Shown: positions 837 through 58,500 of the stretch, piece after piece
Numbering within the stretch: the stretch's first letter is position 1
Layout of the letters: every line of letters begins with the position of its first letter
From: Clostridiales bacterium
Lineage (GTDB): Bacteria; Bacillota; Clostridia; Christensenellales; DTU072
NCBI GenBank assembly: GCA_012800525.1
Contig: JAAZJD010000054.1
Span: forward strand, 1-63,721
DNA: 63,721 bases
Direction of reading: 5' to 3'
The notes under the pieces: generated by a model
Database searches by the model: none
Told to the model about the DNA's origin: nothing
The model's input: the letters and a program-made list of their open reading frames with translations, nothing else
Translations under genes and position numbers: made by a program

Positions 837-1715
837 ATGAATAAAAAAATAACAGAAAAAATTATTAGTATTGCCCTATGTGTAGTTAGCCTATTATTTG
901 TACTTTTGCTACTTATCACCACATTTGGTCATATCAAAAATGCTGACTTAGATAATAAAATAGTGAAAGCTTTATTGATTAGCTTAACTGTTGTATTTGG
1001 TATTTTATCTGGTTTTAGTATTGCAATGTCATTTAGAGACACAGAAAAACTAAGCGCTGTTTTGATTTTCAAAGACAAACATAGTGCAACTAAAGCTACG
1101 GTCGCTGTTATGAAAAGGACTGCAGTTAGAGTTTGCAAACCTATTGAAGAAGCAAAAATTAGAAGAGTTCATATCTTTGCAGATGATGTTGGCAATGTAA
1201 AAATGAAAATCGACATAAAAATTTATTCTGACAAAACCGTTGATGTAACTACTAAAGTTAAAGCTACTCTAATAAACACTTTTGAAGAAGTTTTCGGAAT
1301 TGAATTTTCATCAATCGACTTTAGAATCATCAAATCCAAAAATGAGTATTTGCCAAATGATGCCGATGTTGAAAAACGTGTTGAAGCATTAAAGAAAGAA
1401 ATCGTTATGAATAAACCCCTACCAGAAGATATGGAAGAGGCAAAAATTGAAGATTTAGAAGCAGCTAAAGCTGACGATGCTGAAGAAATTACAACAATTG
1501 AAGTTGAGGCTGATGATGCTGAAGAAAACACAGCAGTTGAAGTTGAAGCTGATGATGCTGAAGAAAGTACAACAGTTGAAGTTGAAGCTGATGATGCTGA
1601 AGAAAGTACAACAGTTGAAGTTGAAGCTGATGATGCTGAAGAAGCTGAAGTTCAAGAAGAGGCAACTGAAGAAGAATCTGAAACCAAAGAAGATTCAGAT
1701 AAAGAAGAAAAATAG
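837..1715 (+). CDS. AmaP-like alkaline shock membrane anchor protein with acidic repeat tail
   Basis: A 292-residue membrane protein. Two hydrophobic helices (about residues 9-31 and 44-66) are followed by an Asp23/AmaP-like domain (about 75-170, including the VGNVKMKIDIKIYSDKTV strand region and a VKATLINTFEEVFGIE helix). In Firmicutes AmaP anchors the Asp23 envelope-stress protein to the membrane. Beyond about residue 180 the protein departs from the usual length of roughly 190 residues and carries a very acidic tail, including a 13-residue unit (VEVEADDAEESTT) repeated about four times. The tail probably lies in the cytoplasm and may serve for crowding or partner binding; this is inference. 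No Asp23 partner gene is adjacent. A strong terminator follows. Confidence 0.7.
   Translation: MNKKITEKIISIALCVVSLLFVLLLLITTFGHIKNADLDNKIVKALLISLTVVFGILSGFSIAMSFRDTEKLSAVLIFKDKHSATKATVAVMKRTAVRVCKPIEEAKIRRVHIFADDVGNVKMKIDIKIYSDKTVDVTTKVKATLINTFEEVFGIEFSSIDFRIIKSKNEYLPNDADVEKRVEALKKEIVMNKPLPEDMEEAKIEDLEAAKADDAEEITTIEVEADDAEENTAVEVEADDAEESTTVEVEADDAEESTTVEVEADDAEEAEVQEEATEEESETKEDSDKEEK
1497..1643 (+). repeat. 39-bp in-frame tandem repeat encoding the acidic tail
   Basis: Units begin at 1497, 1536, 1575 and 1614 with period 39 bp (13 codons). Units two and three are identical and the last is truncated. Because the period is a multiple of three, copy-number changes would alter tail length without breaking the frame. 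Confidence 0.9.
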
Positions 1716-1990: not shown

Positions 1991-2044
1991 AAAAACGTTC
2001 GTGAAAAAGTGTTTATAATAAAAAAATGAAAGGAGAATATAAAA

Positions 2045-4606
2045 ATGGCAGGAAATAATGGATATGTACATTTGCATGTACACAGTGAATTTAGTCAATT
2101 AGAAGGAAGTGCAAAAATTAATGATTTGATTGATGAGGCAAAAAAGCAAAATGCTAAAGCTTTGGCTTTAACTGACACGGGAAATCTTTTTGGATCTTTT
2201 AAATTTTTTAAAGCCTGTGAAGAGGCAAACATAAAAGCTATCATTGGTTGTGAATTTTATATCTATGATAACTCTCACAATAAATATAATCGCATAGTGT
2301 TATTAGCCAAAGATGAAACTGGCTATAAAAACCTATGTAAGTTAAGCAATCCCTCAATCGATGATGTTTCGTATACTGCAAATAATAAAATGGAAAGCAA
2401 CCGTATTTTTATGTTTAAATATAAAGTAGTCTCCAAAATTAAGAAACATTTATGCGATTCTAATATATGCTCGAATTTTAAAATAGATTTAGACACATTA
2501 AAAAATCATAGCAAAGGATTGATTGCTTTGAGCCCAATACTACCTCAATGTGCATTAGGCGCCCTTTCCCTTGAAGAATATGATAATGCTAAAAAATATG
2601 CACTAAAATTAAAATCAATTTTCGATGAAGGCGACTTTTATATCGAACTACAAGATCATAACCTAGAAGAACAAAAACTATTAAATCCAAATTTAATAAA
2701 AATAGCAAATGAAATAGGAGTTAAGTGTGTTGCAACCAATAATATCTACTATGCAAAAAAAAGCGATTCAAAATATCATGATATTTACATGTCTATTAAA
2801 ACGCATAAAAAACTAACTGATAAAGATAGGAAACAACTTCCAAATGATGAGTTTTACCTAAAAACCAAAGAAGAAATGGATGAGATATTCAACTATCATC
2901 TAGAGGCTACTAGCACTCCAAATGAAATTGCAGAAAAATGTAAATTCAAATTTGACTGTAACACCACACGATTTCCCAAATATCAATGCCCTAATAACTT
3001 AAATGCTGGAGAATATCTTAAAAAAATAACCAAAAAAGGTCTTGAAAAAAGATATGGCAAATTAACTAAAGAAATACAGCAAAGAGCAAAAGAGGAGCTT
3101 GATATCATTACAAATTTAGGGATTACAGATTGTATCTTAATCATTTCCGATGTCGTTGATTGGGCTAAAAACAATGGTATTCCCGTAGGACCAGGTAGAG
3201 GACCTAGTGCTTCTAGTATAGTTTTATATGCTTTGGGGGTTGTTGATGTAGATCCTCTAAAATATGGATTGATTTTTGAAAGATTTATTAATAAAAATAC
3301 AATTAAATTCCCTAGTTTTGACATTGATGTTTGCGCCCAAAGATTGCCTGAAGTACAAAATTATATGGTGCAAAAATATGGTAAAAACCATATTTCAAAA
3401 ACTATCAAATTCAAATATATGGGAAAACTAGAGGCTCTTAAAAAAACTGCATCGGTTTTTGATTATCGCGATCTTGGTAAGTTATTAAGACTCTTGCCTA
3501 AAGACACGCCAGGATGTAAAAATCCTAGCCTTAATCAAATATTAAACCCTAACAGCACATATTACATAAAAGAAATAGATGACTTATATAATGAAAATCC
3601 AACACTCAGATTAATCATCAGTGTTGCAGCTAAACTTGAAGGTTCATATTGTTCTTCTATATGTTCATCTATAAAAACTATGATCTACAATCAACCGGTA
3701 ACTGAAATTCTACCTACTTCTGAAAATAGCAAACGTATCTGCACTCAATATGACGATGAAGACCTTAGTATGCTTGGGTTCTTTGGAATTAACTTTTTAC
3801 CTTTAGATACATTAACAGAAGTTAAACTTGTTCATAATATAACTTTAGCAACTAAAGGTATTGATCTAAATTTCGACGATAATAATTATAGTAATTTGGA
3901 AGTATATAAACTAATATCAAATGGTGATACTGAGGGTGTTTTTCAACTAGAAGAGCCTCACTTTCAAAAATTCATGAAAACAATAGAACCCTCTTGTTTT
4001 GAAGAGCTTATTGCAGCCTTTGCACTACATTATCAATGTTTATCTCAGCCAGATTCCACAATAACCAAATATCTTGAAGGTAGAGCTAATCCTAGCAAAA
4101 TTAAATATTTGGATAATAAATTAATAGACATCCTAAAGCCAACAAGAGGTATGATTTTATATCAAGAACAAGTTATGATGATTGTACATAAAATAGCTGG
4201 ATATGATATGGTTAGAGCAAATAACTTTAGGCGGACAATGAGCTTTTTTAATTTAAAAGAAATTGAAAAAGAACGCGAAATATTTATTAATGGATTAAAA
4301 GATGAAAAGGGAAATTTTGTCCTAAATGACAAAGGACTGCCTGAAGTCTTAGGTTGTATTGCAAACGGAATTGATAAAAAAATAGCTGAAGAAATTTTTA
4401 CTCAATTGAAAAAATTGACCCCATATACTTTCACAAAAGCTCATGCTACTGCATATGCTAAGCTTACCTATATCACAGCTTACTATAAAAGCCATTATCC
4501 CCTAGAATTCATGACCGCTGTGTTGAATAATCGCTCAAATAATTCTCGAATTAGAAAATATTTACCATATCTTATAAAAATGGGATTTAATCTCACTTGC
4601 TCTTAA
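2045..4606 (+). CDS. DnaE-like DNA polymerase III alpha homologue, probably catalytically inactive
   Basis: An 853-residue homologue of bacterial replicative polymerase alpha (usual length about 1100-1200). The PHP domain (about 1-280, HLHVHSEFS near the start) and the palm/fingers region (GPGRG, GVFQLE, YQEQVM, TKAHATAYA) align well. The signature PDFDVDF reads PSFDID, so the first catalytic aspartate is Ser424, and the third, in KFDFLGL, is Asn583; only Asp426 remains. The GRGSGAGS, HAGG, RPGP and RRAMGKK motifs are altered, and the PHP motifs TDHGN and ATNDVHY read TDTGN and ATNNIYY. It ends just after the fingers, so the helix-hairpin-helix, clamp-binding and OB-fold regions are absent. 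AGGAG at 2031-2035 supports the start. The frame is intact, which argues for a maintained pseudo-polymerase over simple decay. Its role is unknown. Confidence 0.8.
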   Translation: MAGNNGYVHLHVHSEFSQLEGSAKINDLIDEAKKQNAKALALTDTGNLFGSFKFFKACEEANIKAIIGCEFYIYDNSHNKYNRIVLLAKDETGYKNLCKLSNPSIDDVSYTANNKMESNRIFMFKYKVVSKIKKHLCDSNICSNFKIDLDTLKNHSKGLIALSPILPQCALGALSLEEYDNAKKYALKLKSIFDEGDFYIELQDHNLEEQKLLNPNLIKIANEIGVKCVATNNIYYAKKSDSKYHDIYMSIKTHKKLTDKDRKQLPNDEFYLKTKEEMDEIFNYHLEATSTPNEIAEKCKFKFDCNTTRFPKYQCPNNLNAGEYLKKITKKGLEKRYGKLTKEIQQRAKEELDIITNLGITDCILIISDVVDWAKNNGIPVGPGRGPSASSIVLYALGVVDVDPLKYGLIFERFINKNTIKFPSFDIDVCAQRLPEVQNYMVQKYGKNHISKTIKFKYMGKLEALKKTASVFDYRDLGKLLRLLPKDTPGCKNPSLNQILNPNSTYYIKEIDDLYNENPTLRLIISVAAKLEGSYCSSICSSIKTMIYNQPVTEILPTSENSKRICTQYDDEDLSMLGFFGINFLPLDTLTEVKLVHNITLATKGIDLNFDDNNYSNLEVYKLISNGDTEGVFQLEEPHFQKFMKTIEPSCFEELIAAFALHYQCLSQPDSTITKYLEGRANPSKIKYLDNKLIDILKPTRGMILYQEQVMMIVHKIAGYDMVRANNFRRTMSFFNLKEIEKEREIFINGLKDEKGNFVLNDKGLPEVLGCIANGIDKKIAEEIFTQLKKLTPYTFTKAHATAYAKLTYITAYYKSHYPLEFMTAVLNNRSNNSRIRKYLPYLIKMGFNLTCS

Positions 4607-4610
4607 ACAA

Positions 4611-4640
4611 AAAACGGAGTCGCTTTTGTGACTCCGTTTT
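4611..4640. terminator. Bidirectional terminator between convergent genes
   Basis: AAAACGGAGTC (4611-4621) pairs perfectly with GACTCCGTTTT (4630-4640) around an eight-base loop. It lies between the plus-strand DnaE-like stop and the minus-strand stop at 4659. A-rich and T-rich flanks make it suitable for both directions. Confidence 0.9.
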
Positions 4641-4658: not shown

Positions 4659-6926
4659 TTATTTTTTACGCCTACCAAATAAGCCCTTTTTCTTTTTCTT
4701 ATCTTCTTTAGGTTCTTCTTCAGCTTCTTCAACATTAGTAGTTTCAACTTCTTCTTCAGGCTGGTCTTCTATAGATTCTACTTCTGCATCTCCAGCTACT
4801 ATTTCTTCTTGAACATCTCCTAAGTCTTCAGCAACCATTTCTACTTGCTCTTCTACTATTTCTTCTTGAACATCTTCTAATTCTTCAGCAACTGCTGGTT
4901 CTTCTACTATTTCTTCTTGCGTTTCAGTTTCTTTAGAAGCTGCTGGTTCTTCTACTATTTCTTCCTTAGAATCTTCTGATTCTTCAACAACTGCTGGTTC
5001 TTCTACTATTTCTTCTTGCGTTTCAGTTTCTTTAGAAGCTACTGGTTCTTCCGTGGATTCTTTTTTTACAAATGGTGAAGGCTTACCAAATTTTACTTCA
5101 AATGAACTATCTAAAATTTGTAGACAACTTCCAAAAATCTCTTGTTCAACATCGCTTGGATAAGCACCGCTACCTTTTACATTTGCCAAGAAATTTCTAA
5201 GCTCTACAAATTGCTCTTCTGTAATTTCTTTATCCCTTGAAGCTTGGTCTGCTAAAAATACTAATTGAACTAATCTTTCGCCCTTTTCTCTTTCAATTCT
5301 TTCTGCTTCAGTTTCTTGTGGCTCTTCTACTTCTAGTTTTTTTTTAACCTCTTCTTCTACTACCGGTTCTTCTTCAAGAACAGGCTTTTCTTCTTCTACT
5401 ACCGGTTCTTCTTCAACTACAACAGGCTTTTCTTCAGGTGTAGTTGCGGGAGTTTTAGGGAATTTTACTTCATATGCACTATCTAAAATTTGCAAACAAC
5501 TTGCAAATATTTCTTGTTCAGCATCGCTTGGATAATCGCCGCTATCTTTTGTTGTAGCTAAAAAGCTTCTAAGTTCTACAAATTCCTTTTCTGTAATTTC
5601 TTTATCCCTTGAAGCTTGATCTGCTAAAAATACTAGTTGAACTAATCTTTCACCTTTTTCTCTTTCTTTTCTTTCAGCCTCGGTTTCTTGTGGCTCTTCA
5701 ACTATTTCTTCTGGTTCAGATGCAAATCTAACACTATATGCACCATCTAAGATAATTAAACAGCTTTCAAATATTTCTTGTTCAGCATCACTTGGATAAT
5801 CACCGCTATCTTTTGTTGTAGCCAAAAATGCTCTTAATTCAGCCATTTCTTCCTTGGTGATATTTGGGTCTTTAGAAGCTTGGTCTGCTAAAAATACTAG
5901 TTGTACAAGACGTTCACCAAGACGCCTTTCACGTTCTTCAGCTGTTTCTTGTGGTTCTTCAACAACTACAGGCTCTTCAACTTCTTCAACAACTACAGGT
6001 TCTTCAACAACTGGTTCAGCTCCACGCCAATCTTCTTCTGTAATTGGTTCTTCCTCTACCCATGGTTCCTCTTCTACAAGTGGGATATCTTGAGTTTCTT
6101 CAATTATGAGATTCTCATCTATTTCAGGTGTAGTAACAATTTCTAAAATGTCATTTTGCCCTAGTTTGTTTGCTAGAATATCTTCAATTGCAGCATTTAT
6201 TTCTTCTATATTTTCTTCTACAAACTCGTCATTTATTTCACGGAAAATAATCACATTATTATCTAAAGCATCTTGAAATGCAGAAAAACTTGATTCAAGT
6301 TTTTTATACGCTCTCTTTTGCCTAGCTGAGAAAATAAAATAAAATATTAGATATGCAATCAAAGGTACTATCAATGTGCCGAATACAGGAAGGATATATC
6401 CAAGGACAACTGCTATCTTTTCTAAATGTGCTGGATATTGAAAAAGCAAATTAGCATACCCTAATGCAGATACGCCCCAACAAAGCAATATTGTCAAAAT
6501 GGATAAAAAGTTAAATGAACCCCAACCCGAAGAGTAGTTTGGATTTCCTTTTCTTTCTTCAAGCACTTCATTTTTTGTTATATAATCTGAGGGATAGCCA
6601 GTTTGTTGCTCTAAGAAATTGCCCCATCCGCGACTCACGGTTTCTGGCATTTCTTGAATTCTTTGATTTAACCCAAATACATTTTCTTCATCAATGGTTC
6701 CTGTTGCCTCAACATATGCTGTCGCATCATCTAATTGTTTCTTTAGCTTGCTTGCTCTACCTAAATTTTTCACTATAATTGCTACGATAAAAGCAATTAA
6801 AATTCCTACGACACCAAATATTATTATGTAAACTGCTGGTGCTAAACCTACTTCAAGGTTTAAAAGATTGCCCTCATTAAGCAAAAAATCTCTAAATTTA
6901 TCAACAAATCCCTTCAATGAATCCAT
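4659..6926 (-). CDS. Membrane protein with three copies of a 65-residue unit and acidic linkers
   Basis: A 755-residue protein I cannot name. The N-terminal part has three hydrophobic segments (about residues 29-52, 137-160, 172-198). A long Glu/Pro/Val-rich region then contains three copies of a 65-residue unit at 337-401, 425-489 and 549-613. Each starts GERLVQLVFLADQAS and runs through a helical ELRxFLA segment, a DYPSDAEQEIF motif and LQILD. The C-terminus is highly acidic and ends in a lysine/arginine cluster. The ATG at 6926 is chosen because GGAGAGAGGAG lies just upstream and the promoter's -10 box (6961-6966) excludes the in-frame ATG at 6971. The units may be helical binding modules; this is inference. 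It could be a cytoskeletal or envelope scaffold. Confidence 0.7.
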   Translation of the reverse strand: MDSLKGFVDKFRDFLLNEGNLLNLEVGLAPAVYIIIFGVVGILIAFIVAIIVKNLGRASKLKKQLDDATAYVEATGTIDEENVFGLNQRIQEMPETVSRGWGNFLEQQTGYPSDYITKNEVLEERKGNPNYSSGWGSFNFLSILTILLCWGVSALGYANLLFQYPAHLEKIAVVLGYILPVFGTLIVPLIAYLIFYFIFSARQKRAYKKLESSFSAFQDALDNNVIIFREINDEFVEENIEEINAAIEDILANKLGQNDILEIVTTPEIDENLIIEETQDIPLVEEEPWVEEEPITEEDWRGAEPVVEEPVVVEEVEEPVVVEEPQETAEERERRLGERLVQLVFLADQASKDPNITKEEMAELRAFLATTKDSGDYPSDAEQEIFESCLIILDGAYSVRFASEPEEIVEEPQETEAERKEREKGERLVQLVFLADQASRDKEITEKEFVELRSFLATTKDSGDYPSDAEQEIFASCLQILDSAYEVKFPKTPATTPEEKPVVVEEEPVVEEEKPVLEEEPVVEEEVKKKLEVEEPQETEAERIEREKGERLVQLVFLADQASRDKEITEEQFVELRNFLANVKGSGAYPSDVEQEIFGSCLQILDSSFEVKFGKPSPFVKKESTEEPVASKETETQEEIVEEPAVVEESEDSKEEIVEEPAASKETETQEEIVEEPAVAEELEDVQEEIVEEQVEMVAEDLGDVQEEIVAGDAEVESIEDQPEEEVETTNVEEAEEEPKEDKKKKKGLFGRRKK

Positions 6927-6960
6927 GATTTCTCCTCTCTCCGAAAATGTATATATATTT

Positions 6961-6989
6961 ATTATATACACATACTAACATTTAAGCAA
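6961..6989 (-). promoter_or_regulatory. Promoter of the triple-unit membrane protein
   Basis: On the minus strand TTGCTT (6984-6989) and TATAAT (6961-6966) are 17 bp apart. The expected transcript start near 6954 leaves a leader of about 28 nt to the ATG at 6926. The rest of 6990-7249 is AT-rich and shows nothing recognisable. Confidence 0.75.
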
Positions 6990-26544: not shown

Positions 26545-29500
26545 TTAACTTACCGTTATTATTGTTTCTTCTTTTTCGGCTTTTAAATTTGTCTTCTTAC
26601 TTATAAAAATATTTGCTACATCATTTATCGGAAGAGGAGCATTTAAAGGCTCAGGATTATTAATTGCTCTTACCCTTGAAATAAAGCTTGTTAAGGGATC
26701 ACTTGACGCTTTATTACCACCCATTATTTCTGGGATATATTTATTTTCATCGTATCTTTTCATTAATAACATTGTTGCAAGATATACTATATCATCGCTG
26801 TTTACTTTACCATCTTGGTTTGCATCACCAATGACAGCTAACATATATTTAAATACTGTATTGCCATCGCCATTTCTAAACTCTAACATATCACCAGATT
26901 TTACACTGACATTACTATCTAATGAGATTTTTACATTATTTAAATAAATGTGGTCTATTAAAAAATTAAAATCAGTATTTAAATTTGCTATTTTATTAAA
27001 AATCTTATTAAATTCTGTTGGCCCATTAAATACTAAAATCTCAAACTTTAAGATTTTTAAATCTCTAGGGCTTTTAGAAAACATATCATTTTTTATAAAT
27101 ACTAAATCTTTTTTAGCAGCAAAGGTAACATTATACCCAGCACTTACACTTGTCTTTTTAAAGGCTGCTTTTGGTCTTATATCTATCCTTGTTGAACCAC
27201 CTTTTGTTGAATCATATATAATTTCAAAACTTCTAGTAATATCAGTTTTACCAGAAAGATTTACTTTGTTAGTACCTGTATCAGAATATACCATTGTTGC
27301 CGTTAAAATGATTTCTGAAAAATCGGGAGTTGAGCCAAAACGATATGTAGGATTAGTTGCACTATCTTTCAATTTTACTGACATCTCCGTAACGTAATTT
27401 TGAACTAATAAATCCACCACAGTTGATGTAATATCTGCAGTTGATCGCACATACTCTCCAGCTGCAGGCACATATATTGCTTTTATTTTCCAATTACCAG
27501 GAACTAAATAACTAGACGCCACAGGCTCACTTGTTGAAAATGAATTTTGCTCAGAACCAGGCAATGCTGCTAAAGCTCCAGTATCATCATATCTATGCGA
27601 TCTTACTCCCTCTAAATAATATCTAGTTGCAAGGATATCATTTTCTTCGCCACTTTTCATAAATCTACGAATTTTTACAAAGCTTTCGGCACTTTCTTCT
27701 AAAATATCCTTATAAAAAATTGCAGGTTTTGAATTAAAGGTAAAGATCTTATCTGTATTAAGAAATGTCAATGAAAGACTTGATACGTAGTCTTTTACAG
27801 TAAGGTGAAATTCTATATATTTATTTGATCTTGTATGTGTAATAGTTACAGTTTGAGTTGTATCTATAGCTTCATTATTAAAGTTTTCATCTTCTTTAAT
27901 TACTACTCCCCCAGTAATTAGAGCATTTAATGTATATTCTACTTTTTCTGGATTCCCATTAAGGTCTTTTGAATATCTTAAGGTAAACTCGAACACCATA
28001 TTATTGAGATAATCCATATAATTATCTTGATATCCAATAATATGTTGATTACTAGCTACGGCCATATTAACCACTTCATCTTTTACTCTTAATCTAAAAT
28101 TCTTCTCAAAGGTCAAATATTTCACAGTCAACTCATGTGATGCGACTGGCTCTACTACACCATTATCTGTTAGCTCTTTTGTAATATCTAAATAACCACT
28201 TGGATCAACATATGTTACACTGCTATAATCACTTGGTAATAGCGAAACTTCTCCAGCAAATCTCTTTGATAGTTTCACTTTTGAAGCAAGAGTATTTTCT
28301 AAACTTGCCCCATCATTACTATAGTTAATTACAATTTCATCATCTATTAATATATCTTCAATTACATCTCTAACAATAATCCAATAAGTTTGATCTACAA
28401 AATCAACGCCATCTCTAACTTGAGGCTTTGAATTACCTATAAACTGGATATTAAGTGGTTGTTTTTGATCAACAACATTTTCATCAAATGAAATATTTTT
28501 GGGACTTAGTGTAGCACTTTCTTCATATGGATTTAAAGAGTTAAAATATAGAGCTATCTCAGATTGATTAGGGGCTCTTTCATAGTCAGCATAAGCAAAT
28601 TCCAAAGGATTTTCTTCTGTCCCCGGTGAAATATATTCACCTTCTTCTTTCATCCCTTTTATTTCCCACCTTAAGATGCCAAAAGTTGTTACATAATGAG
28701 TTAATTGTTGTTTAAAAACAATTGATGCGCCTTCTTTTTCTTTTGCATAAATATATATCGGCACGAATAAGGGCTTACCAATAATTGCTTTATTAAATTT
28801 ATCAACAACTTCACCAGTATCATTTGTTTCAAAGTTATAATAGATATCTTGCTCTAACTCTGGATTATATTTTTCAACAATAAGAGACTTGTCGCTTGAT
28901 GGTAAAGTGACCTTCACATCATCTAAAATTAAATCTCCATTTTGCAAATAATAAAAATAATGATCACCTTGGCCTACATGTGATTCATAGCCAAATATTT
29001 CAGTTCTAGAGCCTTGTAAAATAACATCAACTATCTTTTTAGAGGTTTCAACTTCATTGCCAAATTCATCTTTATAACTAAATTTTACTTCATGGGCCCC
29101 CACAACATTGGCATCAAAACCACTAATTGTTACTCTAGACAAATCAACAGATATTTCCTTTGTTGATTGAAATGTTAATTTTAAATAATAAGGGAAATCT
29201 TTTAAATCGCTTTGATATTCTAGTGTTGCCAAAGTAGCCGGCGGATTACCTAAAAAACTGATGCTTTTTACATAATCAACAACTTGTATTTGATAAATAG
29301 TTCTTACTTGATTTAGATATGAGCCTATTTGTTTTGAATAAACAAGTTCAATAGTTCTTTCTCCAGGAGAAGTATACAAGCTTGTTTGTGCCAAATTTGT
29401 AAAAAACTTTCCATTAAAAGGCTTATCTAAATATGCACAAGTTATTTCATCACCACTAGATGCCTTTGTATATTTTATTTCTCCTATTTCTGTATTTGCA

Positions 29501-32500
29501 TCAATAAATGTAGTACCTAATTTGTATCTAGTTTGAGGATTAGTTATAAAAATACTAGAAACATAGTCATTTACTGAAACTTTAAATATACATTCTTTCC
29601 CCAAATAAGTAATCCTAACTTGTTGCTCAGCAGATAAATCAACAGGATTATATGTACCTGAAACTACCATCGTAGCGCTCACACCCATTTCAGATTCCAC
29701 CGTTCCACCATCTACGTTACGAATTATTTTAATTTTCATTTCAGCATATGGTAAAGAATCTCCATATTTCAAATCAAAGGAAGTTATTCCTGATGGATAA
29801 ACAGCAGAAATACTTTCTATTTCAGAAACAATTTTAACTACTGTTTGAGTTGAATATGTTGTATTTTTAATACTTAATGTTGCAGTAACAATACATTCTC
29901 CACTAGCACCTTTGACAGCCCTTATTTGGCCACTATCATTAATTGTAACTAGATTGCTAGGACTTGCAGTATATGTAGGTTTTGGCAGCGGGGTTAACCC
30001 AAGAGCATTACTTGGATTTTTTAGTATTTTTAATTGCACTAATGGAGGGGGTACTGAAGCATATGAAGCATATTCTTCTATAAATATACTAGCCTTTGTT
30101 AAATCTGGATCTCCATTTTCATCCAACTTTGTACCTTCTATTAATATGCTATCTAACGGAATATACTGTCTCACTTCTATATCAATAGTTTTTGAAATGT
30201 CTGTCCCATGAGCTGTAATATTTAATCTTATAAAGCCTTCTTTAATAGAAGTAATTTTCCATTTTGTAATATCTTGCCCCTCTGGTAAAATATCATTTCC
30301 CGTATTAGGATGTGCTTCTATATCTATTTGAATTTCTGCAACTTCATCTTTTCCTTCAATAGGACTAGTCGAAAACATAAGCCTTTTGTAAGTTGAAAGT
30401 CCTCCGCCTTGTGCAACTGTCTTCATAGTTAAATATACATGTTGGGGATTTCCCGCATCATAGTCAAGTTGCATGGTTGTTGCCATCGAAAATCCAAAAC
30501 TATCTCGAATTTCAATATTTGTAACTTCTTTAAATTCGCCTACTCCTGTATATATTAAATTGTTAAATTCAACATTAGTTTGGTATACATCATTTTGACC
30601 TATATATTCTACAAAGCCATCTTCGCGCAAAAACATAGCATGATGATTTGAACAAGACAAATCTACTATATCTATCAAACTATTAAATTGATCCATGAAA
30701 GCTTGACTAGGCCCCATTGGTGTAATTACCTTTCCTGCATTTGTCAAAAGAGAAAAATATGAATCTGCTACAGACACCTTTTTAATTCCGGTTAAACTAG
30801 CTAAAACCTCATTTAATGCATTCATTGTCACTGTATCATTTCCAAAAGCTTTTACAGTTCCATCTTTATATATTAAAACGGCGTATTCTTTAGAAAGACC
30901 AACTTTACTTACATTCGTCTCCGCTTCAATAGCTTGCTTAACTTCATCAGCTAATACACCTGCAACTTTAGCTTTAGCATTTTCCGTAATTCCTATAACA
31001 TTATTGCCATGTGCTACAATATCAACAATGTTAGTCCATGAGTCAACTTCCATTTGCCCTAAATCATCGGCTCCTAAAGCTAAAACAGTTCCATCTACAG
31101 TTACTCCATAACTTGTTCCAGTGCCTGCTGCAATATTTAAAATATTGCTCCAATTTCTTGCTCCAATTTCGCCACGATAATCATAGCCGTAGGCTTCAAC
31201 ATCTAAATTTTTAGTTAAAGCTAGCACATGATCTCTCCCTAAAGCAATAGAAATATATGGGCCTCTACCTTCTATATTCCACTTAGCTTCGAGGGTATTA
31301 TAAGGAACATCACCCGTGTGTCCCAAAGGTATATTTGTTCTTGCAATCCCATTTTTATCTAGCGCAACACTCATCGTATTTGAAGCATATATTGTGGCTT
31401 CAGGATATAGTTTTGAAAGAGTAGACCAGCTTTTTCCTGCTTTATTTATTGCAATCTTTTTTTCTATACTGAAATTATTATTGATATCAAAGATAACCAA
31501 AGATACCTCTTGTGGATACTCATCTTCGGAAACCGCGTTTCCTGTCATTACTCTAGTATGATGGAAAAGATTGTTCAAATCTACAGTTTGTCCTAAATAA
31601 AACCTTCCTTCAAAAACACTTTTATAGCTGTTATATTCACTTTTAAATTTAGCTATATCAATGTTGGCGATTGAAAAAGGTGGTTGCCCCTCTTTAACGA
31701 GTGAAGCTTGAATATTTTTTAGTAGACTTAAATTAAGTCCAGATGATGCTGAAAAGAAAAACTTAACACCAGCCCCAACATCATCTTGGAATAACTCAGC
31801 ATTTAATATTTCAAATTTATCAAAAATATTTTCAGGCAGATTTTCATCGCCAGGTAATACAATTCTAAATTGACTATAATTTGTAGATGTTGAAAGTGGA
31901 GTAATTTGAATACCTGTATTAGTTCCGTCTACATAATATATTGCATCACTTTCATAAGTTTTTTTATTATTTGGGTCTAAAGGTTTACCAAGATTATTAA
32001 AGTGATTATTGTATACTGATAAATATCCTAATTTTGCATCACTATAGCTTGCAGAATATCTTTGACTAGGAGATGTCGTAGGCTTAAGAGAAACTGCTGG
32101 TCTATATACATAAACCTCATCTGGTTTATCAACTTTTCTATATACCGCATCAGCATTACCGTTTATACCTTCTTTTACCCTATACACAATTAATCCACTT
32201 CCTGGTAATGGCCAATCATATACTGATGATTTAGTTCTCATTTCAACCATAATATATTCATTAGATTTATCTGTCGGTATTTTATATGCAAAAGGTTTGC
32301 CCACGCCTTCTCCAGAAACTCTAGATAAAGTTGTTGCATATGCGGTATATGTTCCACTTGAGGTGATTGTTTGAATTTGCTCTGGTTTTATACTTTTTAA
32401 ATACTTGTTTCTCGTATGAACAAGCATATATTGAGGAGTTTTTTTGTTAAAAGACATCAAGTCCCACTCGCCAGTTGGGACAAAATCGTTATTGTAATGG

Positions 32501-33516
32501 TAATAATCTGGAGCACCCAAAACATGTCCCATCTCATGGCAAACTGTCCCAATATCAACACTATCTATAAAGTTAAAGGTATAATCACCAAACCATTTTC
32601 CTAGCATTTTGGGGTCGCTTGGGTCTGCCCCTTTTATCTCTCGAATATTCCATTTATGTGGCCACAATAATCCGCCCCATGTTGGGTTTCTAGATCCTGT
32701 AATAAAAATTGATACTGAATCAACATATCCATCTGAAACACCATTTGGACCCAACTTATCAATATCATCTGCTGTAACATTATATTTTGTTGAGATACTT
32801 GTTAAGATACTTTTAACTAACTCATATTCTTTATTTCTTCTTTCGCTAGAAGAAGAATCCTTTACATCGTAATATGATCTATCATAAGGTGCTTCATATA
32901 TATATGTATCATTTGCTTCTTTTGCAGGAATTGAATCTACGCTAATTTTGTTTTGAGTAAGAGTTTTATAGTAGTTATCTAAATCTGTAAAATTTATCAT
33001 ATTTTCAGGTGGGAATGGATTTGAAGTAGTCTCACCTTTAAACTTTACGTATACAACTAAATTTTTAATAGACATTTGAGAGCTAGAATAGGCCATCCTA
33101 TTTTGCCCTTTTATTTCAATTGGCTCAAGCTTAAACCTTGGATCGTTTCTATCTAAGTCACTTACACTTACCTTTTCAATTCCTGAAGCATCTTGATCTA
33201 AGGTCACTCCAGACCCTACAATTTCTCCATCAACTTTAGTTAAATATTCTAAATTTGTTCTATCTTCATTTGGGACTAAAACATTGCCATATTTATCGTG
33301 GTCATATTTAAATTGCTGATCTCCACTTTGATAAAACTCAAAAACATTACCATCAACTTCAATTTCTCTTTCAAAGTTATATCTATCAAAACTTTCATTG
33401 GCTACGTCATTATTTAATGTCGGATTTTTGCTTACCACAAAACTAGCTGCAACAACTATAGCCACAACTAACAAAATCATTATTGCTATTATAGATACTC
33501 TAGCTTTTTTATTCAT
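26545..33516 (-). CDS. Giant M6-family metalloprotease with RCC1-like, Ig-like and dockerin-like regions
   Basis: A 2323-residue secreted or anchored protein. The N-terminal helix (about 7-29) is a signal or signal-anchor. The M6 (immune inhibitor A-like) zinc protease has H327-E-x-x-H331 with GAPD337 following, and a downstream EWDLMSFN stretch consistent with the Met-turn. Residues about 730-1000 contain RCC1-like units (HVLALTKNLDVEAYGYD, YGVTVDGTVLALGADD). Many Ig-like domains follow (DYVSSIFI, DYVKSISF). At about 2230 IGDANQDGKVNSDDIVYLA is a dockerin-type calcium-binding loop. It heads a two-gene operon with the lipoprotein. The proteolytic target is unknown; host mucin or matrix protein is plausible. 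Confidence 0.82.
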   Translation of the reverse strand: MNKKARVSIIAIMILLVVAIVVAASFVVSKNPTLNNDVANESFDRYNFEREIEVDGNVFEFYQSGDQQFKYDHDKYGNVLVPNEDRTNLEYLTKVDGEIVGSGVTLDQDASGIEKVSVSDLDRNDPRFKLEPIEIKGQNRMAYSSSQMSIKNLVVYVKFKGETTSNPFPPENMINFTDLDNYYKTLTQNKISVDSIPAKEANDTYIYEAPYDRSYYDVKDSSSSERRNKEYELVKSILTSISTKYNVTADDIDKLGPNGVSDGYVDSVSIFITGSRNPTWGGLLWPHKWNIREIKGADPSDPKMLGKWFGDYTFNFIDSVDIGTVCHEMGHVLGAPDYYHYNNDFVPTGEWDLMSFNKKTPQYMLVHTRNKYLKSIKPEQIQTITSSGTYTAYATTLSRVSGEGVGKPFAYKIPTDKSNEYIMVEMRTKSSVYDWPLPGSGLIVYRVKEGINGNADAVYRKVDKPDEVYVYRPAVSLKPTTSPSQRYSASYSDAKLGYLSVYNNHFNNLGKPLDPNNKKTYESDAIYYVDGTNTGIQITPLSTSTNYSQFRIVLPGDENLPENIFDKFEILNAELFQDDVGAGVKFFFSASSGLNLSLLKNIQASLVKEGQPPFSIANIDIAKFKSEYNSYKSVFEGRFYLGQTVDLNNLFHHTRVMTGNAVSEDEYPQEVSLVIFDINNNFSIEKKIAINKAGKSWSTLSKLYPEATIYASNTMSVALDKNGIARTNIPLGHTGDVPYNTLEAKWNIEGRGPYISIALGRDHVLALTKNLDVEAYGYDYRGEIGARNWSNILNIAAGTGTSYGVTVDGTVLALGADDLGQMEVDSWTNIVDIVAHGNNVIGITENAKAKVAGVLADEVKQAIEAETNVSKVGLSKEYAVLIYKDGTVKAFGNDTVTMNALNEVLASLTGIKKVSVADSYFSLLTNAGKVITPMGPSQAFMDQFNSLIDIVDLSCSNHHAMFLREDGFVEYIGQNDVYQTNVEFNNLIYTGVGEFKEVTNIEIRDSFGFSMATTMQLDYDAGNPQHVYLTMKTVAQGGGLSTYKRLMFSTSPIEGKDEVAEIQIDIEAHPNTGNDILPEGQDITKWKITSIKEGFIRLNITAHGTDISKTIDIEVRQYIPLDSILIEGTKLDENGDPDLTKASIFIEEYASYASVPPPLVQLKILKNPSNALGLTPLPKPTYTASPSNLVTINDSGQIRAVKGASGECIVTATLSIKNTTYSTQTVVKIVSEIESISAVYPSGITSFDLKYGDSLPYAEMKIKIIRNVDGGTVESEMGVSATMVVSGTYNPVDLSAEQQVRITYLGKECIFKVSVNDYVSSIFITNPQTRYKLGTTFIDANTEIGEIKYTKASSGDEITCAYLDKPFNGKFFTNLAQTSLYTSPGERTIELVYSKQIGSYLNQVRTIYQIQVVDYVKSISFLGNPPATLATLEYQSDLKDFPYYLKLTFQSTKEISVDLSRVTISGFDANVVGAHEVKFSYKDEFGNEVETSKKIVDVILQGSRTEIFGYESHVGQGDHYFYYLQNGDLILDDVKVTLPSSDKSLIVEKYNPELEQDIYYNFETNDTGEVVDKFNKAIIGKPLFVPIYIYAKEKEGASIVFKQQLTHYVTTFGILRWEIKGMKEEGEYISPGTEENPLEFAYADYERAPNQSEIALYFNSLNPYEESATLSPKNISFDENVVDQKQPLNIQFIGNSKPQVRDGVDFVDQTYWIIVRDVIEDILIDDEIVINYSNDGASLENTLASKVKLSKRFAGEVSLLPSDYSSVTYVDPSGYLDITKELTDNGVVEPVASHELTVKYLTFEKNFRLRVKDEVVNMAVASNQHIIGYQDNYMDYLNNMVFEFTLRYSKDLNGNPEKVEYTLNALITGGVVIKEDENFNNEAIDTTQTVTITHTRSNKYIEFHLTVKDYVSSLSLTFLNTDKIFTFNSKPAIFYKDILEESAESFVKIRRFMKSGEENDILATRYYLEGVRSHRYDDTGALAALPGSEQNSFSTSEPVASSYLVPGNWKIKAIYVPAAGEYVRSTADITSTVVDLLVQNYVTEMSVKLKDSATNPTYRFGSTPDFSEIILTATMVYSDTGTNKVNLSGKTDITRSFEIIYDSTKGGSTRIDIRPKAAFKKTSVSAGYNVTFAAKKDLVFIKNDMFSKSPRDLKILKFEILVFNGPTEFNKIFNKIANLNTDFNFLIDHIYLNNVKISLDSNVSVKSGDMLEFRNGDGNTVFKYMLAVIGDANQDGKVNSDDIVYLATMLLMKRYDENKYIPEIMGGNKASSDPLTSFISRVRAINNPEPLNAPLPINDVANIFISKKTNLKAEKEETIITVS

Positions 33517-44773: not shown

Positions 44774-45061
44774 AAATGGCGTAATAAATGGCGTAATAAA
44801 TGGCGTAATAAATGGCGTGGCAAATGGCTCACCATACATGTCACCATACATGTCACCATACATGTCACCATACATGTCGCTATACATGTCGCTATACATG
44901 TCACTATAAATGTCACTATAAATGTCACTATAAATGTCACTGTAAATGTCACTGTAAATGGCACTGTAAATGGCACTGTAAATGGCACTGTAAATGGCAC
45001 TGTAAATGGCACTATAAATGGCACTGTAAATGGCACTATAAATGGCACTGTAAATGGCACT
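44774..45061. repeat. 12-bp tandem array of 24 units with graded sequence drift
   Basis: ATG trinucleotides recur every 12 bp from 44776 to 45054 (24 units), with one 14-bp unit at 44824-44837. Unit type changes stepwise along the array: AAATGGCGTAAT, then ACATGTCACCAT, ACATGTCGCTAT, AAATGTCACTAT, AAATGTCACTGT, AAATGGCACTGT. The period is a multiple of three, so open frames of about 100 codons exist in several frames on both strands, but none shows gene-like sequence. Confidence 0.95.
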
Positions 45062-45220
45062 CAAAAACTGCCACAGCTAAAAATATGAATAAAAACATCG
45101 CATTAAAACTATGCCTTATTTATAAATTTGGGACTTGCAGTAGCCATAAGTGGACAATTAACCAAAAGTGGACTTCTATGTTAAAAGTAGTATATTATAT
45201 ATTGAAAAAGGAAGTTTTTT

Positions 45221-45661
45221 ATGTGCTACTACTTATATGGAACAGTCGAAGGCGATGTAAACGAAAATTTATTTAACAAACTGAATAATATGAAATATTT
45301 TAAGTTTAAGCTTGGCACATACTCTAGCTTAGTTAGTTGCATAAAAAAAGGCACCGAAGAATTTAGATTAACTAATGGCATGTGCGATTGTGCGACTGCA
45401 ATTGGTGGCAAAAATCCTAGTTATGACAATGCTACCTTATATGAAGTCGATGAGGAGATAGAGGAATACGTAGAGTTTATTCAAAGCTTAACTGAATTGA
45501 GAAATATAAAAAATCTCTACATTTGCAAAAAATATAATAGAGATAAATTAGAAGGCATTATTGAATTACAAATTGATGATATAGATGATTTAAATCTGTT
45601 TTTTGCTAACATTAGACCTAACTTAATATACAAAATTGGACTTTATAAAAAATATTTTTAG
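45221..45661 (+). CDS. Small protein of unknown function
   Basis: A 146-residue protein I do not recognise. It starts MCYYLYGTVEG and contains a cysteine-bearing stretch NGMCDCATAIGG near residue 55 and a C-terminal hydrophobic/charged segment (LFFANIRPNLIYKIGLYKKYF). No signal peptide or membrane helix. AAAGGAAG lies 6 bp before the ATG, which supports a real gene. It stands alone on the plus strand, downstream of the 12-bp array and convergent with the DUF4143 ATPase. The N-terminal YLYG-V-x-G pattern and alpha/beta alternation suggest a small compact fold. Confidence 0.6.
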   Translation: MCYYLYGTVEGDVNENLFNKLNNMKYFKFKLGTYSSLVSCIKKGTEEFRLTNGMCDCATAIGGKNPSYDNATLYEVDEEIEEYVEFIQSLTELRNIKNLYICKKYNRDKLEGIIELQIDDIDDLNLFFANIRPNLIYKIGLYKKYF

Positions 45662-52520: not shown

Positions 52521-55500
52521 TTATGGATTAACCCTTAGCACTGTATATAGTTTCATTTGACGGTGACCAAGGCGTAATGAATATTCAAATGTGTAATACA
52601 TTGCTCTACCTTCTGTGTAAGTTACTATATCACGCCAATTGTTGACTAATTGTGTTCCAAAGTTTGTTGGCGACCACGTTGTTGTACGATATACTGTTGC
52701 ACTTCTCCAGTCAACTGGATACATATAGTCATAGTCATGTCCAGGCACCTCAATGGTTTGTATTCCCAAAAATCCTCCTGAGGTTGTATATGGATCGATA
52801 TGGTCTCTCATAGACATCATTGGTAGATACTGTAAGCTAAATGGTGTTCCAGAAGCTATTTCAATTCTTGGATATTGATTGTCTGGGCTCCATCTAATTT
52901 GTTCAGATAAACCTTGTTGCACAACTGTTGACTTGTATTTTGCTGCTGGGAATGTTTGAGTCCTATCACCAACAGTCATGACACCTTGATCATCTAAGCC
53001 AACATATCTCCATTGTTCTTCTGGTGGTAGCTGAGGAGCTATCATTCCATGACCAAACGATGTTGCAGGGTGATATAGGCCTACCCCTTGAATAAATAGA
53101 GAGTTATTAGGAGTTCCTTCACCATTTGTATAGCTAGATGGATCTTCATATGCAGTCAGATAAATCTCACCACCTACAGGATCTTCAGGGCTTGGATATG
53201 CTCTTACTGTTGTTGCATCCCAATAAATTATACCTGCATAACCTTGCTCAACTACTGGTGTTGGATCATCTTGGCTTATCGATGGTTGTCTAAATTGTGA
53301 TGGTGTAGCCTTTTGTGCAGAAATTTGTATTTCTGCATCCAAGCTGTAGATATCTCCTATCACACTTAAGCCTACTGTTTTTGCATCCTCATCATCATCA
53401 AAGCTATCTTCTATCACAGAGAATATTCTAGTATTTGTGTCTCCAAGATTGAACGTATATTCAAGTGGTATGGTTCTAGATTGTGAGTATGTGCTTCCTG
53501 CAAACACTTGTTTAAACGTCTTTTGTAAAGTAGTGGTTTTGCCAACTTCTAAAGAAATCATGTTATCAACTGTATTCATTAGTAAAACTTTCTCTGGTCT
53601 TACATTAAATTCATATTCAATTACTTGGCCACCTCTTCCTCCAAGCTGCAAGTATGCTTTTTGTGTTTCTTGTGTATCAAACCAATTAACCTCATCAAAG
53701 CTCCACTTATTAACTCTATTTCTATATGTACCGCCACCTCTAAATCCTGTGAACTCAACTATACCACCGTCAAAAGAGACCCTTAATCCGTCGTTTGATC
53801 TTATATCTATTGTAGAAGATGGTGTCAATCTTTCTCCAGGCATTACTTCTGCCATATGTGCTAAATCTCCTCTAACACTAGAAGGTAGTAAAATAACTTC
53901 TTCCATAGAGAAGGTTCTAGTAGCTTCTCTAAACAATGTAGGATTAGGTATAGTCCATAGATTTGGGCTATTATGTACTTCAACAGAATGAGTTTGTCCA
54001 TCTAAATCTAGTCTAAAGGTTGTTCTCATAACTTCTTTATTGTAATGAACTAGCAAGCGATTACCAAAAGATCCTGACCAAATTGAATCTGTAACATCAA
54101 CAAAGTCTGTTGCCTTTCTTGGATTTGCAAACAAAGCTGCTCTTTTTGATAAGTATTCTTCAGTATTTCCAAAATTCCTTGCTTCAAGTATTGTAGTATT
54201 TAATTCTTCTAAGGCATCTTTTGTTCCTACATAAACTCTGTATTCTGTAGGTAGAGGAATTCCACCAAGCTTAATGTATTCATATGGATTCCTTACATAA
54301 TAACTTTCATTTGTTGTTGCACCAAGCTGATATTCTAGGGCTTGAATATTATTTGAGTGAGCATATGGCATTCCCCAATCCTTGAAATCTTTAGCTGTTT
54401 CATTTTCAATAACTTCAAAACCTAAAATGTATGCCTCTTCACAATGTGCATCAAATTTTGCATATTGTTGTCCGCCTTCACCAAGTCCAAATCCTGGAAT
54501 TTTAATATAAAATCTTGCATCTTTACCTTTATGTGATATGCCTCTTGTTGAATCTAGGGTAAATCTAATTCTCATAGACTCTTCTGCTTCTGAAACAGTA
54601 ATGTAGTTATTTTCTGTTGTAAATAGATTTGCATAACCTCCCATTGTAAAGGTAATATCATATGCACCTTCCTCAGAGCCACCTGGTACATTTTCTGGAA
54701 TATTTCCAAAGCGTAAAGTGAAGTATCTTGAAGTAGATGGATCATCTCCACCAAATAAATCTCTTACCACATCAGCAGCGACATCATATGAGTAGTTATA
54801 TTTATATGGTTTAATTGTAGGTTTAATTGGGATTTCTTCGCCATATTTATCAAGCATTGGATATGGGAATCTACCTGAAATTTGTCTTCCCGTTGTTTCG
54901 TCTAAAACAAGCTCGTTGTCTATAGTTATTAAACGACCAAGTTCATCGCGTACTTGTTCTGTATATATCTTGTCTCCATTTTCATCTACAACATAATCTA
55001 AATCTGTAGGATGATTATCTTGTAGGTATACTGGTTCATAAAGATTAGTAAAGCCAGTAACAGTTCTATCTAACACCCTTACATTGTATTTTACGCTTTG
55101 AGCAAAACGATTATCATTTGCAGCTTGATTTGCATTTGCAGCTATTCTATTTAACTTAACAATTGCAATTGCATTGTTATTTAATTCTGCTCCTTTAACA
55201 GAAACTTTGACACCAGCAATATTCCAATCAACCTTCATTTGACTAGCATCAACTGGCGCATTATATGGATTTAATCCATACTTTCCAACTAAATCGCCAT
55301 CTTGTGCAAATTTTACATTTATAGATTCTTTTGGATAAATTTCATCTGGGTTATATACTCTAAATGGATCAAATACAAAGTGCAATCCTTTTTCCCCATC
55401 TTCTTTTGCAAAAGGTGAGTCACTAACAGCAAATAACTTTGATATCTCTCTATTCACGACAACTACAGGAATAATAATTGTTTGATATCCACCAGCTTCA

Positions 55501-58500
55501 TTACCCATCTTTGCAGTAATTCTGCCTGTACCACCCTTGTAGTCTATTTCTTTTGATACTCTACCTGATGGCGACAAGATATGATATGCATGAGTTCTAT
55601 CATATTCAACAGATGTTGTTGTCCTAAATCCAGATGCAGTCATAATGACAACATTATCTTCCGTAATTACATTAACCTTGTTAGATTCAATGTCTTCAAA
55701 CATTGGAATTTCCACTCTATATGTTGAATTATGCTCTGTAAATGAAGTTGGTGTATATGTTCTATATTTATAGTCTTCATAACCAGGCTCAGAAATAGCA
55801 TCTCCATATTTCACTGCATATGGATCGATGAATACAGCATCTTCAATACCTGCAACGTATGTCATATCATAAATTGTTCCAGTGATTGTTAGTAGATACA
55901 TTGCATCTTTTGCTATAGTATCGCCTTTTCTACCAAAGTTTACAACAGCTCTAATACTTCTTCCTTTATACAAGTCTTGTAGTATTGTAGGTCTTCCAGT
56001 ATTTGCATCAAAGATTTGATATGAATCTTGAGAGAGTTCAAAGACAATTTCTTTTAGTGAATTATTGCCTAAAATATTTCCTGAAACATCTTCATTGCCA
56101 TATCTATTGACACGATAAATAATTTCAATTGGGAATGCAAAGGCATCATCAGCAAAATCTTCACTATAACCCTTGACATATGGGTCAATGTTGATGTGAT
56201 TTGAATATGGAAGCACACTACCATCTCTATATCTTACGAAACGGTCTTGCGTTCTTCTGTTTATAACTTCAATTGGTATGCTAATTGATTGTCTACCAGT
56301 TACTCTACCATTTTCTTCTACATAAATTGTAGCAATTGCACTAGAACCATTGCTTTCGTTATACATGCCACCATAAATTGTTAGCTGTGATAAAGCTCTA
56401 CTTATATCCCAACTTACAAATACTTCACGTCTTGCATTTATTGTCTTTCCTTCTTCTTCACTACCTGCACTTCCTAAGTTTGCTAAAACTTTGCTTGGTA
56501 ATCCAACAAAACCAACATATGGGTCAACTACTAATTTTTCAATTTGTCCAAGGCTATTTAATCTAACAACTGAATCTTCCGTTAAAGGCTCTGTTTCGCT
56601 TATTGAGAGGCTAAATAACTCTGATGGCAATACTTCAACATTGATTAAGAAGTTTTGCTCTAACCCTTGAATTCCTTTGCCTATCGTGGCCCTTAATCTA
56701 TATGTACCACCAGTCTTATCGTAAACTAAACCAACTTGGCTGACTTCAACTGAAACATTTTCATCTATAGCACCTTGTTTGAATAGAACTTGTACACCAG
56801 GATTAAATTCAACAATTTCAATAGCTACAGCTTTTACTGCATCATATGCGCTTAGACCTATTGGATTTGCATCGTATTCATATTCTTCTAGTGTATAACC
56901 TGCATTTGCAAGTTCTGATATGTATGCAGGAGTTGTCTTGCCATGACCTCTATAGCCAACATAAATTACTTGGTTTACACTATCTAGATATGAAACTAGA
57001 ACTTGACCACTTAATTTGAGATATTGTAATGCACTATCTATCTCTGTTATTTCACTTGGCCATTCGTTAAGCGTTAATTGTTCAAGACCATTTACAACAT
57101 CAAGTATATTGGTATTTTGTTTGATTATTGGATCTGATACATTATATGAGGCATTTCCATATGAAATTGCAATTAAAGTAGCCTTGCCTAAGTCTGCAAA
57201 CTCGATCTTATCATACAAGCTACCTTTTAGGGTTTGCTCACCATACCAAGTTCTAATTGCCACTGCGATTCTTTCTTGTACAGTAAATTCCATTGGTCTT
57301 TCTTGCCTTATAGAAAGAGTATTAGTCGTTGTATCATCTTCATGGATAACTCTTAAAATTCCACCAAAGTCTTCTGTTATGCCAAAGCCTACCATCTTGT
57401 TATATACATATTCGTACAAATATGTGTATGGAATATCTGGATAATCAATATCTAATTCTTTGGTAATTTCTGTTTCACTGTCATTAGATTTTACAGCTAC
57501 ACTAACTTTGCCATCAATTGCACCTAAAGCATTATTTATTTGCTCTATTATATTTCCATATGGATTTAGAGACACTTCATTTGTAATGCCACCAAAGCTT
57601 ACAATTGTTTGTCCGATTTGGAAAATCTTAATTTCTACTGGGTGATATCCAAATAGGCCGCCACCAACTCTTCCTACAACAGTTCTTTCTACATCTTCAA
57701 AATGTTTAAATGCATTAATTTCTAGCCATTCTACCGGTAAATCATTATATTCAGTAAGTGGGTTATCTGGATCTGAAGCATTTGGAACTAGACTTTCTAC
57801 TCTTGCATAATGTGGAAGCTTAATACCATCAAATGCATAGAATGTATTAGATTTAGTGTTATCTGCTACATCAGCAATTGTAAACTCATCAGAATAGTCT
57901 TCATCTTTGAAGTATTGCACTGAGGTTATTTCTCTTGATTTCAAGTTAATATATCTAACTGGAATTACTCTTCTATTATTATCACTTACACCAAGTGTAG
58001 CATTTCCAATGATTCCCTCAACTTGTGAGTAGAAGCTCTCTTTATCTACACCAAGGTCAAATACTACAGGAACAGCTTCTTCAGTTTCAAATTCATCTTG
58101 CAATTTAACGTTAATCAATTTTGGAAGCTCAAAATTAACAGGGTCTTTTATCTTTATTGTTACCTTTGGATCAGCATCATTATTTACTTCAATTGTAAAT
58201 CCATTAACATCTGATGTTACTGGAGCAATATTTGAATATTCATGATTTGATAAGAAGCCATCATTTGTTAATTGATATTGGATTTCTTGAGACCATATTG
58301 GGTTTTCTGCATAACCAACATTTCCAATTCTTACTTTTATACCCACTGTTCTACCGTCTAAGTATATTCCACCTTCTTCAATAAAGTTCCAAGATATAAC
58401 TTCAAACATATCTCTAGCAATCGTAACATTTAGACCTTTAACTTTTGCCTTGATTCCTGCTTGCTCTAACATGTCATCGATATTACCTTTCATAGCTGGG

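Follow-up and report, generated by a model that had tools for sequence, protein, structure and literature searches.

What becomes of a second copy of a replicative DNA polymerase once its active sites are gone: does it decay, turn into a different enzyme, or persist for a role other than catalysis? The question is raised by the gene at positions 2045–4606 (plus strand) of the window, that is, the whole 63,721-nucleotide stretch of Clostridiales DNA analysed here (contig C10 of an assembly of 1.78 Mb with 95% completeness). A preliminary description had read this gene as a DnaE-like pseudo-polymerase maintained by selection. The reading frame begins with ATG and runs for 853 codons with no internal stop, and the insertions and deletions that separate it from DnaE all keep the frame, so the uninterrupted frame described earlier is real. 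The same holds for its ribosome site, as a Shine–Dalgarno-like AAGGAG (2030–2035, plus strand) lies 9 nt 5′ of the ATG. The proposed promoter did not hold up, as 15 sigma-70-like matches were found compared with 17.2 ± 4.9 in shuffled sequences, which is chance level. Of the proposed terminator the structure stands, a GC-rich hairpin between the convergent genes (4611–4640), but its T-run better suits the minus-strand neighbour, so that at most the two genes share it as an intergenic terminator. The codon adaptation of the gene is 0.64 (0.636) versus 0.50 for shuffled sequence, slightly under that of reference genes (0.658–0.761), and its GC content falls in the same range (31.5 versus 30.0%).

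The catalytic triad of C-family polymerases (D401, D403 and D555 in E. coli) has been described as absolutely conserved (PMC3919608), and the active PHP exonuclease of DnaE carries nine ligands, HHDHEH[C/H]DH (PMC12926913). Pfam places PHP, DNA_pol3_alpha and DNA_pol3_finger domains on the 853-residue protein, with matches in NCBIfam as well, and thereby confirms the PHP, palm and finger homology that defines a C-family polymerase (DnaE1). Its residues were compared with those of the genome's own DnaE and of 29 DnaEs from the same bacterial family. In the palm/thumb region (DNA_pol3_alpha, aa 323–585; 3011–3799, plus strand) the first catalytic Asp (D401 of the own DnaE) is replaced by Ser424 (3314–3316, plus strand) and the third (D562) by Asn583 (3791–3793, plus strand); the motif PDFDID thus reads PSFDID and KMDFLG reads GINFLP, the remaining Asp of the triad, D426, being kept. 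GRGSGVGS has become GRGPSASS in the same region, and HAAG has become SSIK. The finger domain (aa 590–754; 3812–4306, plus strand) retains YQEQ and has lost the RPGP and SKK motifs (RPGP to YSQP, RRIISKK to RRTMSFF). In the PHP domain (aa 9–205; 2069–2659, plus strand) six of nine metal ligands are replaced (D20E, H45T, H83R, C165I, D233N and H235Y, the last two just beyond the Pfam boundary), turning the HHDHEHCDH of the own DnaE into HHETERINY. In total 8 of 12 metal ligands and catalytic Asp are gone; D426 and D428 of the palm are still present, as are H9, H11 and E70 of the PHP site. The replacement of two catalytic Asp and the altered GRGSG, HA-G, RPGP, RR and PHP metal motifs were all noted in the preliminary description and are borne out by the alignment. 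Where a C-family polymerase requires three Asp this protein has S424, D426 and N583, and the nine-ligand site of an active PHP exonuclease is intact in the own DnaE but not here.

The protein also ends ahead of the clamp-binding and OB regions, as had been described, and the HhH pair, likewise required of a DnaE1, is missing too. No remnant of these regions was found downstream of the gene or elsewhere in the genome, save in the true DnaE. A split polymerase with its C-terminal part encoded apart was rejected, as the C-terminal region occurs just once in the genome. Relative to the own DnaE the PHP domain carries an insertion of ∼32 aa that is predicted to be disordered; the corresponding lineage-specific region (aa 106–143; 2360–2473, plus strand) is open in the frame of the gene only. 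A frameshift-compensated origin of the insert was rejected, since it resembles DnaE in no frame.

An AlphaFold2 model of the protein, built with 22 DnaE relatives, reached a pLDDT of 84 and a pTM of 0.81, with confidence below 50 only at aa 1–3, in the insertion (106–143) and in the loop that formerly held a PHP ligand (165–173). Its best solved relatives in Foldseek are the Pol III alpha subunits of Taq, E. coli and M. tuberculosis (TM 0.79–0.86). The model thus keeps the DnaE fold, bearing in mind that the homologous alignment partly imposes the fold on the model; the structure prediction and metal-site check called for in the preliminary description accordingly give a modelled DnaE fold with most of its metal ligands missing.

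The preliminary reading would have fallen had this gene been the only DnaE of the genome. However, a full-length DnaE of 1202 aa is encoded on contig C41 (C41:6050–9658); its catalytic and PHP residues are all intact and it has the HhH and OB regions, and the gene at 2045–4606 is thus not the sole replicase. PolC and DnaE1 are described as the clostridial combination of replicases. By contrast, a search that gave positive controls for B. subtilis, L. lactis and T. maritima detected no PolC polymerase here, nor in the 37 further family genomes searched, which cover 11 genera. The families of the order show either a PolC-like match pattern or a single match (DnaE alone), and many other families look DnaE-only at this level, which reflects PF07733 match numbers only. 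A 519-aa protein of the same genome (L189:256–1815; G000 contig C18) combines a weak OB-fold match with a DEDDh exonuclease, has PolC as its best family match and lacks PHP and polymerase parts; it may be what is left of a PolC, retained as a proofreading subunit in its own right.

The paralogue is found in this genome only. Used as a query, it retrieves the normal DnaE from each genome of the family at 36–44% identity, and its closest match is the own DnaE (51%; 51–52% over aa 1–850). The 39 other family genomes yielded no copy, nor did genome and viral contigs scanned with peptide seeds, so the homologues sharing its substitutions, for which the preliminary description had suggested a search, did not turn up there. 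Conservation across species, a trait of B- and Y-family pseudoenzymes, is therefore not seen, there being no other copy in the 40 family genomes. In the tree the paralogue and the own DnaE are sisters with a support of 100/99, and as none of the family's other DnaEs falls within this clade the gene is a lineage-specific duplicate. The branch lengths are 0.44 for the stem, 1.61 for the paralogue and 0.24 for the own DnaE. Because the branch of the paralogue is long and its composition odd, this placement leans also on an insertion in the finger region that is common to both proteins and missing from the family consensus.

The surroundings of the paralogue are those of relatives with one segment replaced. 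Its upstream neighbour (837–1715, plus strand) is a conserved gene without a Pfam family, has an N-terminus that looks membrane-spanning, is matched in 25 of the 38 family genomes searched (its own included) and bounds the replaced segment on the left; the convergent neighbour (4659–6971, minus strand), followed by AddA/AddB-like genes, bounds it on the right. In two relatives the order is the 837–1715 homologue (preceded in one of them by a nitroreductase gene), an acyl-CoA synthetase-like gene, a CorA-like gene, the 4659–6971 homologue and AddA, the two middle genes being named by eye from their sequences. The paralogue occupies the place of these two genes, and elsewhere in its genome the acyl-CoA synthetase has only a 30% partial match. 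A phage origin was rejected on the grounds that the sister is the host DnaE and the chromosomal neighbours are in conserved order; among the phage DnaEs listed, moreover, the best are just ∼34–35% identical. Contamination of the assembly is unlikely, considering the similar GC range, the sister relationship to the genome's DnaE and the neighbours shared with relatives. Gene conversion from DnaE left no clear sign, as in the most similar stretch (aa 193–232, 88% amino acid identity) the synonymous identity is only mildly raised, at 0.66 versus 0.57 overall.

If the duplicate is simply decaying, its substitutions should be those of neutral drift. The pairwise dN/dS between paralogue and own DnaE is 0.055 (likelihood limits roughly 0.02–0.09), and the value on the paralogue branch is ∼0.1 (from a branch ratio of 6.7:1, assuming equal time and mutation rate); the dN/dS proposed as a check in the preliminary description thus falls well below 1. 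Synonymous change is near saturation, with 51 of 128 4-fold sites identical (40%) where 0.36 is expected at random, and the dS of ∼0.7 or lower that a neutral history of the paralogue needs is rejected (p = 2e-5). The paralogue has lost 61 (30%) of the 203 residues that do not vary across the family, and the losses are concentrated in catalytic motifs (26/51 versus 35/152 elsewhere, p = 3e-4); invariant sites are nonetheless kept more than variable ones. Conservation is 64% in the PHP domain, 59% in the first half of the palm and lowest, at 30%, in the second half. In simulations of neutral drift a divergence of 10% produced a mean of 7 stops and one of 30% a mean of 22, with at least 14 in 60/60 runs, compared with none observed; the chance of zero stops falls from 0.30 at 1% change to 0.10 at 3% and 0.02 at 5%. 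The marks of a pseudogene, i.e. stops or frameshifts, a dN/dS near 1 and a uniform loss of conserved sites, are thus missing, and catalytic residues have been lost beside an active paralogue. As read from the sequence, the pattern of loss is that of a pseudoenzyme, not a pseudogene.

Low dN/dS on the branch, near-saturated synonymous sites, the missing stops and the catalytic bias of the losses together argue that the duplicate has been maintained, and with the intact DnaE elsewhere in the genome they support the pseudo-polymerase maintained by selection of the preliminary description. The purifying selection on reading frame and fold is nevertheless indirect, inferred from a single sequence in one genome at near-saturated dS. 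The best surviving alternative is an early-stage pseudogene, an extra DnaE that long functioned, lost its function recently and is now drifting, stop-free by luck. This would fit the long branch (1.61), the loss of 30% of the invariant sites, the C-terminal truncation, the slightly weaker codon adaptation and the occurrence in a single genome. However, the invariant-site losses are too many for a neutral phase without stops according to the simulations, they cluster in catalytic motifs rather than being uniform, all indels are in frame, and confidence in the predicted fold is good, which makes recent decay an unlikely account of the gene as a whole. A short recent neutral phase of a few percent divergence after function ended is possible.

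We therefore favour, as probably the best reading, a maintained, non-catalytic pseudo-polymerase. According to this model the DnaE of this lineage would have been duplicated into the site that acyl-CoA synthetase and CorA-like genes occupy in relatives, and the duplicate would then have been shortened by a third at its C-terminus and have lost the catalytic residues of the polymerase site as well as those of the PHP exonuclease site, losses that are visible in the sequence. Afterwards purifying selection, to judge by the substitution patterns, would have kept a folded protein that most likely acts by binding instead of catalysis. In E. coli the proofreading exonuclease is held by the PHP domain. 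As the PHP domain and the first half of the palm are best kept, and the paralogue lacks the regions through which DnaE touches clamp, tau and duplex DNA, the likeliest partners would be those docking on the PHP/palm face of DnaE, with a proofreading exonuclease (for instance the genome's OB-Exo protein) or DnaE itself as candidates that the paralogue would hold, compete for or regulate. That the genome's OB and DEDDh-exonuclease protein pairs with DnaE, and by extension with the paralogue, is plausible as a guess, and naming any such partner on this face is likewise a guess that we would not expect to prove right.

A more specific version of a binding role, already raised in the preliminary description, makes the paralogue a decoy, a replisome regulator or part of an anti-phage defence, in competition with the DnaE of phage or host. 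DnaE-like polymerases are indeed present in phages (matches in 1316 phage records, none reaching 60% identity), and inactive paralogues in other polymerase families are known or proposed to work in complexes (PMC2527604, PMC12926913). However, with the tau- and clamp-binding regions missing the paralogue cannot oust DnaE from the clamp or clamp loader via known contacts, the neighbours are ordinary chromosomal genes with no defence neighbourhood seen among them, and PADLOC 2.0 defence models gave no match; the clamp-loader decoy and anti-phage roles thus find no direct support, and we regard this version as distinctly improbable. Least credible of all is a neo-functionalised enzyme using a remaining Asp or a new site, as the persistence of D426 and D428 in the palm and H9, H11 and E70 in the PHP site is set against the loss of 8 of 12 metal-binding positions together with the GRGSG, HAAG, RPGP and SKK residues.

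Inactive Y-family polymerases are parts of mutasomes. The maintained pseudo-polymerase reading would place the paralogue, homologous to its own DnaE over aa 1–850 with the same fold and finger-region insertion but with two catalytic Asp and most PHP ligands lost and no HhH, clamp-binding, OB and CTD regions, beside other dead relatives of active replicases. It resembles the inactivated archaeal B-family polymerases (PMC2527604) and the half of Pol epsilon that is inactive (PMC2669801), inactive B-family polymerases having been proposed to play a structural role, but these belong to family B and are ancient and widespread, while the paralogue belongs to family C and occurs in one genome. Catalysis has likewise been lost in ImuB, in other inactive Y-family proteins and in PolX with an inactive polymerase site (PMC12926913), which keep a role as complex partner or nuclease; unlike the paralogue, the Y-family ImuB has ImuA and DnaE2 as its partners, and the X-family PolX keeps its PHP activity. 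The paralogue suggests that the pattern of inactive polymerases in the B, X and Y families extends to the C family, and such a counterpart would raise the question of non-catalytic roles for replicase paralogues in DnaE-only bacteria. A maintained dead C-family paralogue was not described in the literature searched, which covers few subscription journals. Such proteins could have been missed, since one survey beforehand removed sequences and fragments whose active site was incomplete (PMC3919608) and another study discarded strongly diverged and truncated sequences ahead of tree building (PMC12926913).

The order contains further degenerate derivatives of DnaE. We surveyed genomes with an extra polymerase match in single-DnaE families, leaving out several PolC-bearing genomes with an extra match, and therefore draw no connection to the loss of PolC. 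Six mini-DnaE proteins of 270–370 aa (L076:7435–8541, L077:853–1941, L078:6879–7799, L080:7676–8512, L081:4468–5514 and L082:7367–8443, in other genomes of the order) are, like the paralogue, derived from DnaE with palm and finger segments kept and catalytic Asp lost (PDFDID to PFSF or similar); unlike it they have no PHP domain, often keep SKK-type basic residues and in three cases (L076, L078 and L080) adjoin a gene for a WYL-domain regulator on the same strand. Four have an N-terminal extension, one of which weakly resembles the FtsK gamma domain (under the Pfam cut-off). A profile scan found mini-DnaEs in 6 of 297 genomes of the order and none in the genome of the paralogue, and the comparisons made gave no sign of a sister relation to the 2045–4606 gene. 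A class-level scan for mini-DnaEs at E ≤ 1e-20 returned no match, but as the six known carriers gave none either and were presumably outside the sample, this result carries little weight.

Two further short DnaE derivatives were found in single-DnaE families of the order, along with three metallo-beta-lactamase proteins that carry a degenerate DnaE palm at their C-terminus (L071:5903–8323, L073:7591–9804 and a 738-aa ORF in L074). As in the 2045–4606 gene, the first catalytic Asp of the fused palm is replaced (A, N) and the next two Asp are kept; RMMBL is matched in L073 and weakly in L071. In genome G161 the mini-DnaE gene (L077) has a similar metallo-beta-lactamase gene ∼3 kb away. We tentatively raise the possibility, to which we give well under even credence and hold as doubtful, that catalytically dead proteins have evolved from DnaE more than once in those families of the order that lack PolC (the full-size paralogue, the mini-DnaEs, some of them next to WYL regulators, and the metallo-beta-lactamase fusions) and act as regulators or scaffolds in replication or repair; they would then make up a class of pseudo-polymerases within the C family. 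L070 and L072 (genomes G121 and G263) encode additional DnaE-like polymerases, 802 and 1072 aa long, which have strong matches to phage polymerase families and probably lie on prophage or phage contigs.

Elsewhere in the window, the ORF at 44812–45276 consists of a short-period repeat (HHTCHHTC… followed by CKWHCKWH…) and is probably a DNA repeat array, not a gene. Two long ORFs of 3728 and 2323 aa (52521–63707 and 26545–33516, respectively) encode, as judged by eye, putative surface proteins.
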